Of a stretch of 40,016 nucleotides of DNA, positions 31,133 to 37,622 are shown in pieces. This stretch comes from Nevskia sp. (GTDB lineage: Bacteria > Pseudomonadota > Gammaproteobacteria > Nevskiales > Nevskiaceae): contig JAUXYM010000039.1 in assembly GCA_030694365.1 (NCBI GenBank), forward strand, positions 1 to 40,016, in the 5' to 3' direction. Below the pieces are notes generated by a model. The model did not search any database. It had not been told where the DNA came from and was given only the letters and a program-made list of their open reading frames with translations. A program made the translations under genes and the position numbers. Each line of letters begins with the position of its first letter. Position 1 is the first letter of the stretch.

Positions 31133-31291
31133 GGCGTTCCCCGCATTCGTTTTTGAGTGGTGTCGGGTCGGTGTGCATGACGCCGTCCTTGTTCCGACAC
31201 CCCTGAGATGCAGCGCGATCGCCATCCGGATTGAAGCGCTTGCAAAAATTTGTCGAAAAAACCGCCATCCGGGCACTCGGAAAGCGTCCGT

Positions 31292-31297
31292 TATACT
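31292..31297 (+). promoter_or_regulatory. Possible -10 element for the miaB operon
   Basis: TATACT, in the context ccgttatacttcg, lies about 39 bp before the miaB ATG. No good -35 is seen 17 bp upstream, so this is a weak call based on the -10 match and position only. Confidence 0.3.
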
Positions 31298-31335
31298 TCG
31301 CACCTTCCCAGACCCGCCCCCGCCTTCGCCCCGGA

Positions 31336-32715
31336 ATGACTCAGTCCCCGCCCGTCAAGCCCCTGCCGTCCAAGGTCTTCATCAAGACCTTCGGCTGCCA
31401 GATGAACGAGTACGACTCGTCGAAGATGGTGGATGTGCTGAAGGCCGCGCGTGGCTACGAGCGGACCCTGGATATCGACGACGCCGATCTGGTGCTGCTC
31501 AACACCTGCTCGGTGCGCGAGAAGGCCTCCGAAAAAGTGTTCTCCGATCTCGGCCGCCTGAAAGCCTGGAAGGCCGCGAAGCCAGGTCGTTTGGTCGGCG
31601 TTGGTGGCTGTGTCGCCAGCCAGGAAGGCGAAGCGATCGCCAAGCGGGCGACGGCTGTTGATCTGGTGTTCGGCCCGCAGACTCTGCATCGCCTGCCGGA
31701 GCTGATCGACCAGACCCGTGCGACCCAGCGTCCGGCGGTCGACGTGCGCTTCCCGGAAATCGAGAAATTCGATCGCCTGCCGGAACCGCGTGCCGAAGGC
31801 CCGACCGCGTTCGTGTCGATCATGGAAGGCTGCTCGAAGTACTGCACCTTCTGCATCGTGCCGTACACGCGCGGCGAAGAAATCTCCCGGCCGCTCGATG
31901 ACGTGCTCGCCGAAGTCGATTCCCTGCTCGGCCAGGGCGTGCGCGAGATCACCCTGCTCGGCCAGAACGTCAACGCCTACCACGGCGTCATGGCCGACGG
32001 CTCGCACTGCGATCTGGCGCTATTGCTGCACATCCTGGCCCGCTTCGAGGGCCTGGGACGAGTGCGCTACACCACCTCGCATCCGGCCCATTTCAATGAC
32101 GCGCTGATCGATGCCTTTGCCTCGATCGCCAAGCTCGACAACCAGTTGCACCTGCCGGTGCAGAGCGGTTCCGATCGCATCCTGGCGATGATGAAGCGCG
32201 GCTACACCCAGGCCGACTACCTGCGCAAGATCTTCAGGCTGCGTAAGCTGCGACCGGGCATCAGCCTGTCGACCGATCTGATCGTCGGCTTCCCCTCCGA
32301 GACCGACGAGGACTTCGAGCAGACCATGGCGCTGATCGAAGCCGCACGCTTCGATGCCGCGTACTCGTTCATCTACTCGCCTCGCCCCGGCACGCCGGCC
32401 GCCAACCTGCGCGATGGCGTGCCGCTGGAGGTCAAGCAGGCGCGCCTCGAACGGGTGCAGGCGCGGATCCGCGAGTTCGGCGAACAGTTTGCTGCGCGTC
32501 TGGTCGGAACCGTGCAGTCGGTGCTGGTCACCGGGCCGTCACGCAAGGGTGGTAGCCAGTTGACCGGCAAGACGCCGTGCAACCGTTCGATCAATTTCGA
32601 TGGCCCGGCGCACGATGCCGCCCGTCTCGTCGGCCAGTTCGTCGACGTGCAGGTGACTGCCAGCATGGCCAATTCCCTGCGCGGCGAAATCGTCACCGCC
32701 GACGCCGTCTCCTGA
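31336..32715 (+). CDS. miaB: tRNA-2-methylthio-N6-dimethylallyladenosine synthase MiaB
   Basis: A 459-aa radical-SAM methylthiotransferase that modifies i6A37 to ms2i6A37 in tRNAs reading UNN codons. The UPF0004 domain is at the N-terminus ([18 protein letters not shown], Cys21, and [11 protein letters not shown]). The radical-SAM cluster motif is CSKYCTFC in [18 protein letters not shown], quoted as MEGCSKYC and [15 protein letters not shown] domain is at the C-terminus. ATG 31336 is chosen because [16 protein letters not shown] leads straight into the conserved start. Its stop is 16 bp before phoH. Its Fe-S clusters are of the type whose maintenance depends on YgfZ in E. coli. Confidence 0.97.
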
Positions 32716-32731: not shown

Positions 32732-33742
32732 TTGAAAACTACGGACCCCGTCGCGATCTCCCGGCGCGATTTTTCGCTGGACCCGGACGATGCGCCGCGC
32801 ATCGCCAATCTGAATGGCAGTTTCGATGCCCATCTGCGTTCGCTGGAAATCGGCTTCGGCATCGAGATTCGCAACCGCGGCAACCGCTATGTGGTGATCG
32901 GCCCGGCCGATGAGGCCGAGGCCGGAGAAAGCGCGATTCGCTCGCTGTTCGATCAGACCGAGTACGGCGCGATCGATGGCGAGAACGTGCACATGGCGCT
33001 GCACGAGTTCGCACCGCGCTCGAAGCTGAGCGCGATCCCTGGTGCCCGCAATGGTGACGACGTGGTGATCCGCACGCGGCGCGGTGTCGTCCGTGGCCGC
33101 TCGCCGCTGCAGAAGGCCTATCTCGACGATATCGCCAGCAAGGTGCTGAGCTTCGGCATCGGCCCGGCCGGCACCGGCAAGACTTATCTCGCCGTCGCCA
33201 GCGCCGTCGAAGCGCTGGAACGCGATCGCGTCCGTAAGCTGGTGCTGGTCCGGCCGGCAGTCGAGGCCGGCGAAAAGCTCGGCTTCCTGCCGGGCGACAT
33301 GGCCCAGAAGATCGATCCCTATCTGCGGCCGCTGTATGACGCGCTGTACGAAATGCTCGGCTTCGAGAAAGTTGCCCGGCTGATCGAGCGCAATGTCATC
33401 GAGGTAGCACCGCTGGCCTTCATGCGCGGCCGCACGCTCAACGAAGCCTTCGTGATTCTCGACGAAGCGCAGAACACCACGGTCGAGCAGATGAAGATGT
33501 TCCTGACTCGCTTGGGCTTCGGCTCGGTCGCCGTGGTCACGGGCGACGTCACCCAGATCGATCTGCCGAAGCATGTGGCCAGCGGCCTCAACCATGCGAT
33601 GAGCGTGCTTCGAGGGATTCCCGAAATCGGCTTCACCCAGTTCGGCTCCAACGATGTCGTCCGTCATCCGCTGGTGCAGACCATCGTCCGTGCTTATGAA
33701 GCCTACGAGGCCAGCGAGCGGGCCGCGAAGGACTTGCGTTGA
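32732..33742 (+). CDS. ybeZ: PhoH-like ATPase (YbeZ/PhoL)
   Basis: A 336-aa PhoH-family ATPase, probably an RNA-linked NTPase working with YbeY. Walker A is GPAGTGKT (144-151) and Walker B is [11 protein letters not shown]. The conserved [17 protein letters not shown] and GDVTQIDLP are present. The N-terminal part contains a KH-like segment ([18 protein letters not shown]). The start appears to be TTG 32732 ([13 protein letters not shown]), since no ATG or GTG fits. Gene order miaB-ybeZ-ybeY-corC is conserved from E. coli. Confidence 0.95.
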
Positions 33743-33752
33743 GATTCAAGCG

Positions 33753-34208
33753 ATGAGCGTCAGCCACAACATCACCATCCAGCGCCGGGTACCGCCGGCC
33801 GGCGTGCCGGCACCGGCCGCGCTGCGCCAATGGGCGCTGGCAGCACTCGGCCACACCCATGGCGAGTTGACCATCCGCATCGTCGACGAAGCCGAAAGTG
33901 CAGCGCTGAACAGCCGCTATCGCGGCAAGGATTATCCGACCAACGTGCTGTCCTTCCCCTACGATTCGGAAGGCTTCGAGGAAACCGACGACGGCCCGCC
34001 GCTGGGCGATCTGGCGATCTGCGCACCGGTGGTGCTGCGCGAGGCCGACGAGCAGGGCAAGGAAACGCGTGCCCACTGGGCGCACATGGTGGTGCACGGC
34101 GTGCTGCATCTGCTCGGCCGTGATCACCTCGAGGACGCCGAAGCCGAAGTCATGGAGGCCGAGGAACGGGCAATTCTGGCCGGACTTGGCTTTCCCGATC
34201 CTTATTGA
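33753..34208 (+). CDS. ybeY: Endoribonuclease / rRNA maturation factor YbeY
   Basis: A 151-aa zinc-dependent factor for 16S rRNA 3'-end processing and ribosome quality control. The zinc motif [11 protein letters not shown] has His115, His119 and His125. Upstream is the conserved [19 protein letters not shown] then LGDLAIC. The ATG at 33753 lies 10 bp after the phoH stop; the longer frame starting in phoH is not used. Length is typical. Confidence 0.96.
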
Positions 34209-34366
34209 CGCCTCGTACACAAGCCACAGAAGCGCAAAGCGATTGCGCTAGACTGGTCAAAACATGATCGAAGGCTTGCAGTTATCCCGAGGAGGGAACT
34301 AGCAGGTCAAGGCTGCGCGCATCAGTTGCAGGCTGCGCGGCATGGTTCTTGGTACTTTTCCTGGTT

Positions 34367-35227
34367 ATGAACGACGGCCCCAGTAACTCCTATTCCGAAC
34401 GCGAATCCGAAGCCAGCCCTTCAAGCTGGTGGCGGCGCCTGACCCAGCGCCTCGCGGGCGGCCCGCGCACTCGCGAAGACCTCAACGATCTGCTCGACGG
34501 CGCCCACGAATCCGGCCTCGTCGATTCCGATGCCGCCTCGATGATCCGCGGCGTGTTCGAGACCAGCCAGTTGCAGGTGCGCGACATCATGGTGCCGCGC
34601 GCCCAGATGGCGATCGTCGAACGCGACTGGCCGCTCGAACAACTGCTGCGCGAAGTCGTCGAGGCGGGCCACTCGCGCTATCCGGTGATCGGCGATTCCC
34701 GCGACGAGATCGTCGGCATCCTGCTGGCCAAGGATCTGCTGCGTTTCACCTCCACCGACAGCGAACGCTTCGACCTCGCCCGCTGGCTGCGACCGGCGGT
34801 GTTCGTGCCGGAATCGAAGCGCGTCAACGTGCTGCTCAAGGACTTCCGCAAGAGCCGCAACCACATGGCGCTAGTGGCCGACGAATACGGCGGCGTGGCC
34901 GGCCTGGTCACCATCGAAGACGTGCTCGAACAGATCGTCGGCGAGATCGACGACGAGCACGATGAATCGGAAAGCTCGCAGATTCTCAAGCAGGACGATC
35001 GCCGCTTCCTGGTTCAGGGCCTTACGCCGATCGCCGAGTTCAACGAATACTTCGGTGCCAATTTCTCCGACGAGGATTTCGACACCGTCGCCGGCCTGGT
35101 GATGCACGAGATCGGCCACATGCCGCGCCGTGGCGAAAGCGTGCAGATCGACCGCTTCCAGTTCATCGTCCAGCGCGCCGACAGCCGCAGAGTTCACCTG
35201 CTGCAGGTGACGCTGTCGCAGACCTGA
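34367..35227 (+). CDS. corC: CorC/HlyC-family CBS-domain protein
   Basis: A 286-aa cytoplasmic protein of the CorC (YbeX) type. It has an N-terminal region with TREDLNDLLDGAHESGLVD, two CBS domains (about 65-190: VRDIMVPRAQM, HSRYPVIGDSRDEIVGILLAKDLL and ALVADEYGGVAGLVTIEDVLEQIVGEI, given here as landmarks in pieces), and a CorC/HlyC transporter-associated C-terminal domain (about 205-285). It is implicated in Mg2+/Co2+ homeostasis and in ribosome-related functions because of its linkage to ybeY. ATG 34367 is chosen over the ATG at 34349 since it gives MNDGPSNS, like the family. The 158-bp spacer after ybeY holds nothing recognised beyond a cgaggaggg stretch. Confidence 0.93.
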   Translation: MNDGPSNSYSERESEASPSSWWRRLTQRLAGGPRTREDLNDLLDGAHESGLVDSDAASMIRGVFETSQLQVRDIMVPRAQMAIVERDWPLEQLLREVVEAGHSRYPVIGDSRDEIVGILLAKDLLRFTSTDSERFDLARWLRPAVFVPESKRVNVLLKDFRKSRNHMALVADEYGGVAGLVTIEDVLEQIVGEIDDEHDESESSQILKQDDRRFLVQGLTPIAEFNEYFGANFSDEDFDTVAGLVMHEIGHMPRRGESVQIDRFQFIVQRADSRRVHLLQVTLSQT

Positions 35228-35244: not shown

Positions 35245-36516
35245 ATGCCCAGGCTGAGCGCGACGGTGATCCACTGGTTTGCGGCCACCTGGCTGGTGCT
35301 GCTGACGCTCCTCGCGCCGCGCTTGGCCGCCGCGCCATTCGTGCCCAGCGGCCAGCCGGCGGACAACCTGAGCGCCAGCATCGTCACCTTCCAGCCGGGC
35401 TCGCTGTACTGGCAGCGCTTCGGCCACAACGCGCTGCTGATCCGCGATGTCGCGCGCGGCCGGGCGATCAGCTTCAACTACGGCATCTTCGATTTCGCGG
35501 CACCGAACTTCTTCCTGAACTTCGCGCGCGGCCACATGACCTACCGCGTGGTGCCGAATCATCTCGAACGCGATCTGCTGAACTACCAGGCCGAAGGCCG
35601 CTGGGCGCTGGAACAGCGCCTGAACCTCGATGCCCGCCAGATCGGCCTGCTGCGCGATTACCTCGAATGGAACGTGCAGCCGGAGAACGCCGAATACGGC
35701 TACGACTACTTCATCTCGAACTGCTCGACGCGGGTCCGTGACGCGCTCGACTACGCGATGGCCGGCGGCCTGAAGCCGCAACTCGTCGGTCACCCCACCG
35801 CCGCGACCTGGCGCAGCGAAGCGACCAAGCTGATCTCGCCCGATGCGCTGCTGATGGTGGTCATGGATCTGGCGATGGGGCCGACTGCCGATCAGCCGAT
35901 CGATCTCTGGCAGCAGAGCTTCGCGCCGCTGGCGCTGATGCAGGCGCTGCGCGGCACCACCGTCACCGATAGCGCAGGCCGGGTGCGGCCGCTGGTCAGC
36001 TATGAAGCCCGGCTGCTGCCCGGCGGCCGCGCCAACGACCCGCCGGCCCGCGCGCCGGATCTGCGCCTGCAGTTCCTGCTCGCCGGCCTGGCGCTGGCCG
36101 CGATCCTGATCGGCCTCGCGAAGTTTCGCGGCGCCGCCACCGCGCGCTGGCTGCTGATGCCGATCGCAGTCGGCTTCTCGCTGCTCTGCGGCTTCGGCGG
36201 CGTGTTGCTGATGCTGCTCTGGCTTGCCACCGAACACTGGGCTGCCTGGCGCAACGAAAGCCTGCTGCTGGTCAATCCGCTGAGCCTGTGGCTGGCAGCG
36301 TCGCTGCTGCTCTATCCACGGCCGCGCTGGCGTCCGGCACTGTGGACCCGGCGCATCGCCCTGCTGCTGGTCGCGACCAGTGTCATCGCCGTGTTGCTGC
36401 GCTATCTGCCCGGCGCCACGCAGGAGAACCTGCACTGGGCCTTGCTGCTGCTGCCGGTGCATGCCGCGCTGGCCTGGCTGTTCTGGCATGCCAAGAAGCC
36501 GGCCGATGAACTCTGA
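35245..36516 (+). CDS. DUF4105 / Lnb-type periplasmic and membrane protein
   Basis: A 423-aa protein. A signal peptide or anchor (WFAATWLVLLTLLAPRLAAA) leads to a periplasmic DUF4105 domain (about 40-265) with the conserved FGHNALLIRD (His61), ISFNYGIFDF, and YDYFISNCSTRVRDAL (Cys160). About five membrane helices fill 273-420. DUF4105 is the N-terminal periplasmic domain of Lnb, a lipoprotein intramolecular transacylase of some Gram-positive bacteria; the candidate Cys-His pair is present. It occupies the slot just after corC where many gammaproteobacteria have lnt, the apolipoprotein N-acyltransferase. A role in lipoprotein acylation is inference. The stop overlaps the cdd start by 11 bp. 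Confidence 0.82.
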   Translation: MPRLSATVIHWFAATWLVLLTLLAPRLAAAPFVPSGQPADNLSASIVTFQPGSLYWQRFGHNALLIRDVARGRAISFNYGIFDFAAPNFFLNFARGHMTYRVVPNHLERDLLNYQAEGRWALEQRLNLDARQIGLLRDYLEWNVQPENAEYGYDYFISNCSTRVRDALDYAMAGGLKPQLVGHPTAATWRSEATKLISPDALLMVVMDLAMGPTADQPIDLWQQSFAPLALMQALRGTTVTDSAGRVRPLVSYEARLLPGGRANDPPARAPDLRLQFLLAGLALAAILIGLAKFRGAATARWLLMPIAVGFSLLCGFGGVLLMLLWLATEHWAAWRNESLLLVNPLSLWLAASLLLYPRPRWRPALWTRRIALLLVATSVIAVLLRYLPGATQENLHWALLLLPVHAALAWLFWHAKKPADEL

Positions 36517-36994
36517 GCCAGGCACGACGACCAGCACGACGGCGGTCACCGTGACACCGATCGATGAGCTGAAGCCGAACCAGCGCGCGCTGGTCGGTGC
36601 CGCACTCGCGGCCACCGCCACCGCCTATGCGCCGTACTCGCGCTTTCACGTTGGCGCGACCCTGTTGTTCGCCGATGGCAGCCGGCACAGCGGTGCGAAT
36701 TTCGAGAACGTCTCCTACGGCCTGAGCCTGTGCGCGGAAACGGTCGCCATCGCCAGCGCCAGCAGCGCCGGCCGTCTGCACGAAATCGTCGCCATCGCGA
36801 TCGCCGCCGTCGGCGACCTGGAAGCGGCGGTGACCGGCGAATTCATCGCGCCCTGCGGCCGTTGCCGCCAGGTGCTCGCCGAAGCAGTGACCATTTGCGG
36901 TCACGACATCGAGGTGCTGATGCTCAGCCGCGATGGCCAGCGCGTGCGCAAGACCACGGCGCGGGCGCTGTTGCCGCTGGCTTTCGGGCTATAG
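36506..36994 (+). CDS. cdd: Cytidine deaminase
   Basis: A 162-aa zinc hydrolase that converts cytidine or deoxycytidine to uridine in pyrimidine salvage. The zinc and proton-shuttle motif is LCAETVAIASA (Cys76, Glu78), and the second is PCGRCRQVLAE (Cys117, Cys120). This is the three-Cys, small homotetrameric type. GANFENVSYGLS is the conserved substrate loop. ATG 36506 overlaps the end of the DUF4105 gene. There is an N-terminal extension of about 25 residues before NQRALVGAAL. Confidence 0.94.
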   Translation: MNSEPGTTTSTTAVTVTPIDELKPNQRALVGAALAATATAYAPYSRFHVGATLLFADGSRHSGANFENVSYGLSLCAETVAIASASSAGRLHEIVAIAIAAVGDLEAAVTGEFIAPCGRCRQVLAEAVTICGHDIEVLMLSRDGQRVRKTTARALLPLAFGL

Positions 36995-37073
36995 CGCAGG
37001 GTAGGCACGAACCTCAGCGCCGCAGGGCGGTCTGAAGCTTCAATCCTTTCCCGCCTTGACTGAGCCCGAGCCC

Positions 37074-37622
37074 ATGTCCCGACTGCTGCGTCTCGCCACA
37101 TCGCTGTTCGCCGCTACCTTGGCCGGGGCTTTGACTGCCTGCGCCTCGACCTCGCATCTGCCGCCGATCGAGCGCGCCGCCAAGGTCGATCTGCCGCGCT
37201 TCATGGGCGACTGGTACGTGATCGCCTATGTGCCGACCTTCATCGACAAGGACGGTTACAACCAGATCGAGAACTACAAGCTCAACGACGACGGCAGCAT
37301 CGCCACCACCTTCACCTTCCGCGACGGCGGCTTCGACGGCAAGCCGAAGAAGTACACGCCGAAGGGCTACGTCGTTGAGGGAACCAACAACGCCGAATGG
37401 GGCATGCAGTTCGTCTGGCCGATCAAGGGCGAGTACCTGATCACCGAGCTGGCGGACGACTATTCGAGCGTCATCGTCGCCCGCAGCAAGCGCGATCTGG
37501 TCTGGCTGCTGGCCCGCAAGCCGGCGATGAGCCAGACCGACTACGACCGCCAACTCGCCAGGATCGCGGCGATGGGCTACGACCTGAAAGAGGTCAAGCG
37601 GGTGCCGCAGCGCTGGCCGTAG
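37074..37622 (+). CDS. blc: Blc-type outer-membrane lipocalin (lipoprotein)
   Basis: A 182-aa lipoprotein. The signal ends in the lipobox LTAC with Cys23. Lipocalin motifs are FMGDWYVIAYVPTFIDK (the GxW region) and DYSSVIVARSKRDLVWLLARKP. Blc binds lipids, with a preference for lysophospholipids, on the inner face of the outer membrane in stress. ATG 37074 is chosen over an in-frame TTG at 37056. Cys-containing maturation of this protein would require Lgt, Lsp and an N-acylating step. It is the nearest lipoprotein to the Lnb-like gene. Confidence 0.92.
   Translation: MSRLLRLATSLFAATLAGALTACASTSHLPPIERAAKVDLPRFMGDWYVIAYVPTFIDKDGYNQIENYKLNDDGSIATTFTFRDGGFDGKPKKYTPKGYVVEGTNNAEWGMQFVWPIKGEYLITELADDYSSVIVARSKRDLVWLLARKPAMSQTDYDRQLARIAAMGYDLKEVKRVPQRWP

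Follow-up and report, generated by a model that had tools for sequence, protein, structure and literature searches.

A predicted Lnb-type lipoprotein N-acyltransferase in the lnt position of a Nevskia genome and its relatives

Introduction

Lnt is treated as a near-universal Gram-negative enzyme; it is essential in E. coli and has been discussed as a drug target. In a stretch of 40,016 nucleotides from Nevskia sp. (GenBank assembly GCA_030694365.1, contig JAUXYM010000039.1; hereafter, the window), the slot after corC where lnt is expected holds another gene, raising the question of which protein performs the last step of lipoprotein maturation, for which E. coli uses Lnt. Judged by sequence comparison, a protein of the Lnb type very probably does so in this bacterium and its relatives. 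Lnb is unrelated to Lnt, and work on it has so far been confined to Bacteroides.

The gene after corC encodes a full-length Lnb homologue

The gene (hereafter, lnb; 35245..36516, forward strand; 423 aa) is the fifth in the order miaB-phoH-ybeY-corC-lnb, all on the forward strand. Conserved order was used to assign miaB (31231..32715), phoH/ybeZ (32732..33742) and ybeY (33654..34208), and Pfam CorC_HlyC and CBS matches to assign corC (ybeX; 34349..35227), which lies directly upstream, ends 17 nt before lnb and served as the synteny anchor. On the same strand, cdd (cytidine deaminase, 36506..36994; Pfam dCMP_cyt_deam and sequence) has its start codon inside the end of lnb, an operon-like overlap of 11 nt. 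A possible substrate of the pathway is encoded two genes past lnb (37056-37622), a Blc-type lipocalin whose signal (LTAC) resembles that of a lipoprotein.

The protein begins with a signal-peptide-like segment (35245..35340), recognized from hydropathy and a model helix at aa 3-23, with LAAA at aa 27-30. This is followed by an Lnb_N domain (formerly DUF4105, PF13387; aa 39-177, 35359..35775) with 75.3 bits against a Pfam cut-off of 22.2, permuted NlpC/P60-like and predicted to be periplasmic. The C-terminal part is an Lnb-type membrane domain (aa 274-414, 36064..36486) of about five helices according to hydropathy, the model and DSSP. Its Pfam family, 5TMH_Lnb (PF25221), matched aa 286-381 of the window protein with 25.1 bits against a cut-off of 25.2; the homologues of Pseudoxanthomonas (41.3) and Tahibacter (37.7) passed this cut-off, and 26 of 28 aligned members matched the family. 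Four residues showed no variation in 64 of 64 aligned homologues, i.e., His61 (35425..35427), the proposed catalytic base, Cys160 (35722..35724), the proposed nucleophile, and His331 and Asn337 (codons spanning 36235..36255), in a loop after membrane helix 2 on the predicted periplasmic face.

The NCBIfam Lnb model NF051878 gave a match of 160.6 bits (E 5e-47) over aa 35-358. Its equivalog cut-off of 550 bits was passed neither by this protein nor by any other gammaproteobacterial match, and we therefore name the protein Lnb-type, in a clade separate from the Bacteroidota enzymes. Profile-profile comparison of ten gammaproteobacterial sequences with fifteen Bacteroidota Lnbs gave a probability of 100% and an E-value of 2.6e-68 over 373 columns, covering both domains, the membrane domain included, and the Bacteroidota Lnbs fell on one side of a branch with support of 100/99. 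By these comparisons the 423-aa protein is a full-length Lnb homologue, and it is well supported that the gammaproteobacterial Lnbs are a new, divergent branch of a known kind of enzyme. Among Pfam and NCBIfam models, the window protein matched Lnb families alone and did not match Lnt (TIGR00546, CN-hydrolase); sequence search returned no convincing solved structure.

These results agree with most of what an earlier note had read from the DNA alone. The open reading frame is present exactly as claimed there, the order miaB-ybeZ-ybeY-corC-ORF was right, and the slot is confirmed as that of lnt by relatives in which lnt follows corC. The note's description of a DUF4105-domain, multi-helix membrane protein holds, the proposed signal peptide corresponding to a signal-like hydrophobic helix, as does its choice of His61 and Cys160 as a candidate pair.

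The predicted fold is that of permuted NlpC/P60 enzymes

An AlphaFold2 model of the protein (pLDDT 91.3, pTM 0.85) has an alpha/beta domain, in which a strand begins at His61 and a helix (160-171) has Cys160 as its first residue, followed by the membrane helices. The order of His before Cys is that of permuted NlpC/P60 enzymes, and the loops between membrane helices carry positive charge on the inferred inner (cytoplasmic) side. Foldseek returned TseH (probability 1.00, E 0.0035) and CLN5 (probability 0.94, E 0.017); since no more than one domain can be aligned, these E-values are modest and the TM-scores low. In PMC12994826, TseH is grouped with LRAT and DUF4105 in permuted NlpC/P60, and phospholipases are named among the relatives; CLN5 is a BMP synthase (PMC13015511).

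Lnb and Lnt exclude each other in the family

A search for lnt with TIGR00546 found nothing above the cut-off in the window's genome, which is 89% complete, so that its absence there rests partly on relatives, and nothing in 17 congeners, one of them 100% complete. We profiled 58 genomes of the window's family (12 genera), calling Lnb at NF051878 scores of at least 150 bits and Lnt at the TIGR00546 cut-off. Lnb alone was detected in 44 genomes and Lnt alone in 8; none had both and 6 had neither (Fisher p 1.6e-6 for mutual exclusion, uncorrected for relatedness). Among the six, the contig of one (G010) ends 87 bases past corC and two (G015, G035) are without a corC orthologue, and the locus is therefore missing from these assemblies; the others are G080, G095 and G096. 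A match in G007 was rejected as Lnt, being a divergent CN-hydrolase beside a TetR-like gene and below the cut-off (84.9 bits, 26% identity).

Lnb and Lnt are exchanged in place

All 29 Lnb loci inspected in relatives had lnb directly after corC, and those relatives with Lnt had lnt after corC in the same gene order. A single genus (g11) contains both types, with Lnt in two species and Lnb in nine, and a class II aldolase gene, maf and rng lie downstream in most of them, behind Lnb and Lnt alike. The swap of one gene for the other is strikingly clean. A tree of miaB, phoH and corC required 6 changes of state, and well-supported branches forced 5 of these. The Lnt proteins from the four Lnt lineages of the family grouped in one clade (96/95), as would be expected had they been inherited from the ancestor of the family. 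With Lnt forming one clade, Lnb would be the gene that entered, and several lines would have kept or regained Lnt; each single change may have gone either way.

Lnb looks like a trait of two gammaproteobacterial groups

To place the family in a wider context, 200 genomes were sampled from the order of Pseudoxanthomonas helianthi, none of them named Xanthomonas. Lnb was found in 188, and after corC in 13 of 15 sampled Lnb genomes. Canonical Lnt (about 300 bits) was present in three of the 200, all belonging to the 12 that lack Lnb, and in these it lies after corC. In a class-wide draw of 274 genomes, Lnb was limited to the window's genome and two genomes of one family, the match coordinates of which are identical to those of two in the Pseudoxanthomonas-order sample. 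Lnb thus seems to characterize two groups within the Gammaproteobacteria. Outside the Proteobacteria, Treponema sp. (L037) and Ancylomarina euxinus (L043) apparently combine an Lnb-like protein with an Lnt that scores over the cut-off.

Other DUF4105 and Lnt-like proteins were also detected. A second DUF4105 protein of about 630 aa (Lnb_N + DUF7840 + DUF7843) has a copy in the window's genome (C114:29457-29963) and occurs elsewhere (e.g., L016:514-2391). It has the Lnb_N domain in common with the window protein but is without the Lnb membrane domain and is widespread across the order irrespective of Lnt, and was rejected as an Lnt replacement. Genomes of another family, f6, that carry Lnt (G041, G044, G047, G050, G051, G053, G055, G056 and others) encode a third DUF4105 type, which is short (about 340-385 aa); in many of these genomes Lnt is present in two or three copies. 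Tahibacter aquaticus (G067, L175:5021-7513) and about 20 further genomes encode, besides Lnb, a divergent Lnt-like CN-hydrolase membrane protein. Most of these proteins have 800+ aa, including a C-terminal extension, and those examined are only about 25-28% identical to Lnt and do not lie next to corC; the Tahibacter protein, of 830 aa, 28% identical and likewise not beside corC, was set aside as too divergent to be taken as a real Lnt.

Lnb as the probable lipoprotein N-acyltransferase

Very probably this gene supplies the cell with its lipoprotein N-acyltransferase, Lnb having replaced Lnt in place. The protein would be exported and anchored by its membrane helices, and in the periplasmic permuted NlpC/P60 (LRAT-like) domain Cys160, activated by His61, would take an acyl chain from a membrane phospholipid as a thioester. 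The acceptor of the chain would be the diacylglyceryl-cysteine freed by LspA, at its alpha-amino group, giving a triacylated lipoprotein, and the His331/Asn337 loop of the membrane domain would probably shape the donor or the lipoprotein site. Identity to the Bacteroidota Lnbs is about 26-34%, and the NF051878 score is well short of its cut-off, so that donor or product could differ.

The replacement may have been tolerated because the family has a single, LolF-like homologue of LolC/E. Nearly every genome of the family had one LolC/E-type gene, whether its lineage carries Lnb or Lnt; the window's own assembly had no match, probably owing to a gap. Species with LolDF tolerate the loss of lnt (PMC11784454). 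With moderate confidence we extend the proposal to a wider scheme, in which Lnb serves as lipoprotein N-acyltransferase across the Xanthomonadales and most of the window's family, Lnb and Lnt are interchangeable cassettes that displace each other, in both directions, at a single locus, probably through recombination within the conserved flanks and permitted by a LolF-type transporter, and the lipoproteins of Xanthomonas and its relatives would be N-acylated.

Three other explanations were weighed. It is unlikely that the N-acylated lipoprotein is instead made in a Lit-like manner: the acyl donor is unreadable from sequence, an N-acylated product would satisfy Lol too, and lit complements an E. 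coli lnt deletion (PMC11784454), but the homology is to Lnb, described in PMC13103446 as adding a third acyl chain, and not to Lit, for which no model was among the reported Pfam and NCBIfam matches of the window protein. Slightly less probable still is that lipoproteins are simply diacylated and that the substrates of the Lnb-like protein are other lipids or other parts of the envelope. Diacyl anchors were assumed and modelled for Xanthomonas campestris B100 (Xcc) because no Lnt was found there (PMC10368991), LolF-type systems can live without N-acylation, and a role on other lipids would suit the phospholipase relatives and the Foldseek neighbours TseH and CLN5. This explanation leaves unaccounted for the position of the gene in the lnt slot, the absence of co-occurrence with Lnt in the 58 genomes and at least five switches between the two. 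That an lnt lies elsewhere in the genome, with the Lnb-like protein as an accessory, is highly improbable, since the incompleteness of the window genome, the additional Lnt-like proteins of some Xanthomonadales such as Tahibacter and the distant Lnb carriers with both genes are set against the lack of Lnt in 18 genomes of the genus and in every Lnb genome of the family, and against the divergence, mostly far greater length and location away from corC of the Lnt-like proteins.

The earlier note had proposed that the protein replaces or supplements Lnt, and had suggested a search of the genome for lnt as the check. With that search finding none, and with the family survey, the part that stands is replacement; supplementation does not, given that no family genome has both genes.

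If Lnb is the N-acyltransferase, an enzyme unrelated to Lnt serves nearly a whole order, including Xanthomonas, as well as the larger part of a family from a different order. This would explain the missing Lnt and offers Lnb as the likely missing enzyme of Xanthomonas campestris, although the order sample contained no genome named Xanthomonas. The lipoproteins would then be N-acylated and not diacylated, contradicting the published assumption for Xanthomonas, and Lnt inhibitors would not act on these bacteria. The exchange within one genus is also a natural experiment that bears on which properties of an N-acylating enzyme the Lol system requires.

Comparison with known systems

The earlier note had described Lnb as an intramolecular enzyme of Gram-positive bacteria. 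That description belongs to Lit, the Gram-positive intramolecular lipoprotein transacylase (PMC12345273); Lnb is the lipoprotein N-acyltransferase of Gram-negative Bacteroides, as cited in PMC12994826, PMC13103446 and PMC12345273. An N-acyltransferase other than Lnt in a Gram-negative was therefore already known, and the novelty that the note saw in such a replacement does not extend to the principle. The principle of DUF4105/Lnt exchange is likewise published, since PMC12994826 (2026) reports repeated displacement of DUF4105 proteins by Lnt in three genomic contexts. What appears to be novel is the host group and the repeated in-place swap of Lnb and Lnt over one family and one order of Gammaproteobacteria.

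Bacteroides Lnb resembles the window protein in its two-domain architecture, the full-length profile match, the His/Cys pair, the His and Asn of the membrane domain and a genome without lnt. It differs in sequence and in clade, and the window protein is gammaproteobacterial and sits in the corC-lnt slot. With Lnt the window protein has this chromosomal slot in common and, as we infer, the reaction step, whereas the two are unrelated in structure, Lnt having a CN-hydrolase fold with N-terminal helices and the window protein an NlpC/P60 domain with C-terminal helices. Lit would N-acylate the lipoprotein as well but belongs to a different family. LRAT/PLAAT, TseH, Tox-Act1 and CLN5 have the predicted catalytic fold in common with the window protein, but they are without the Lnb membrane domain and have other substrates.
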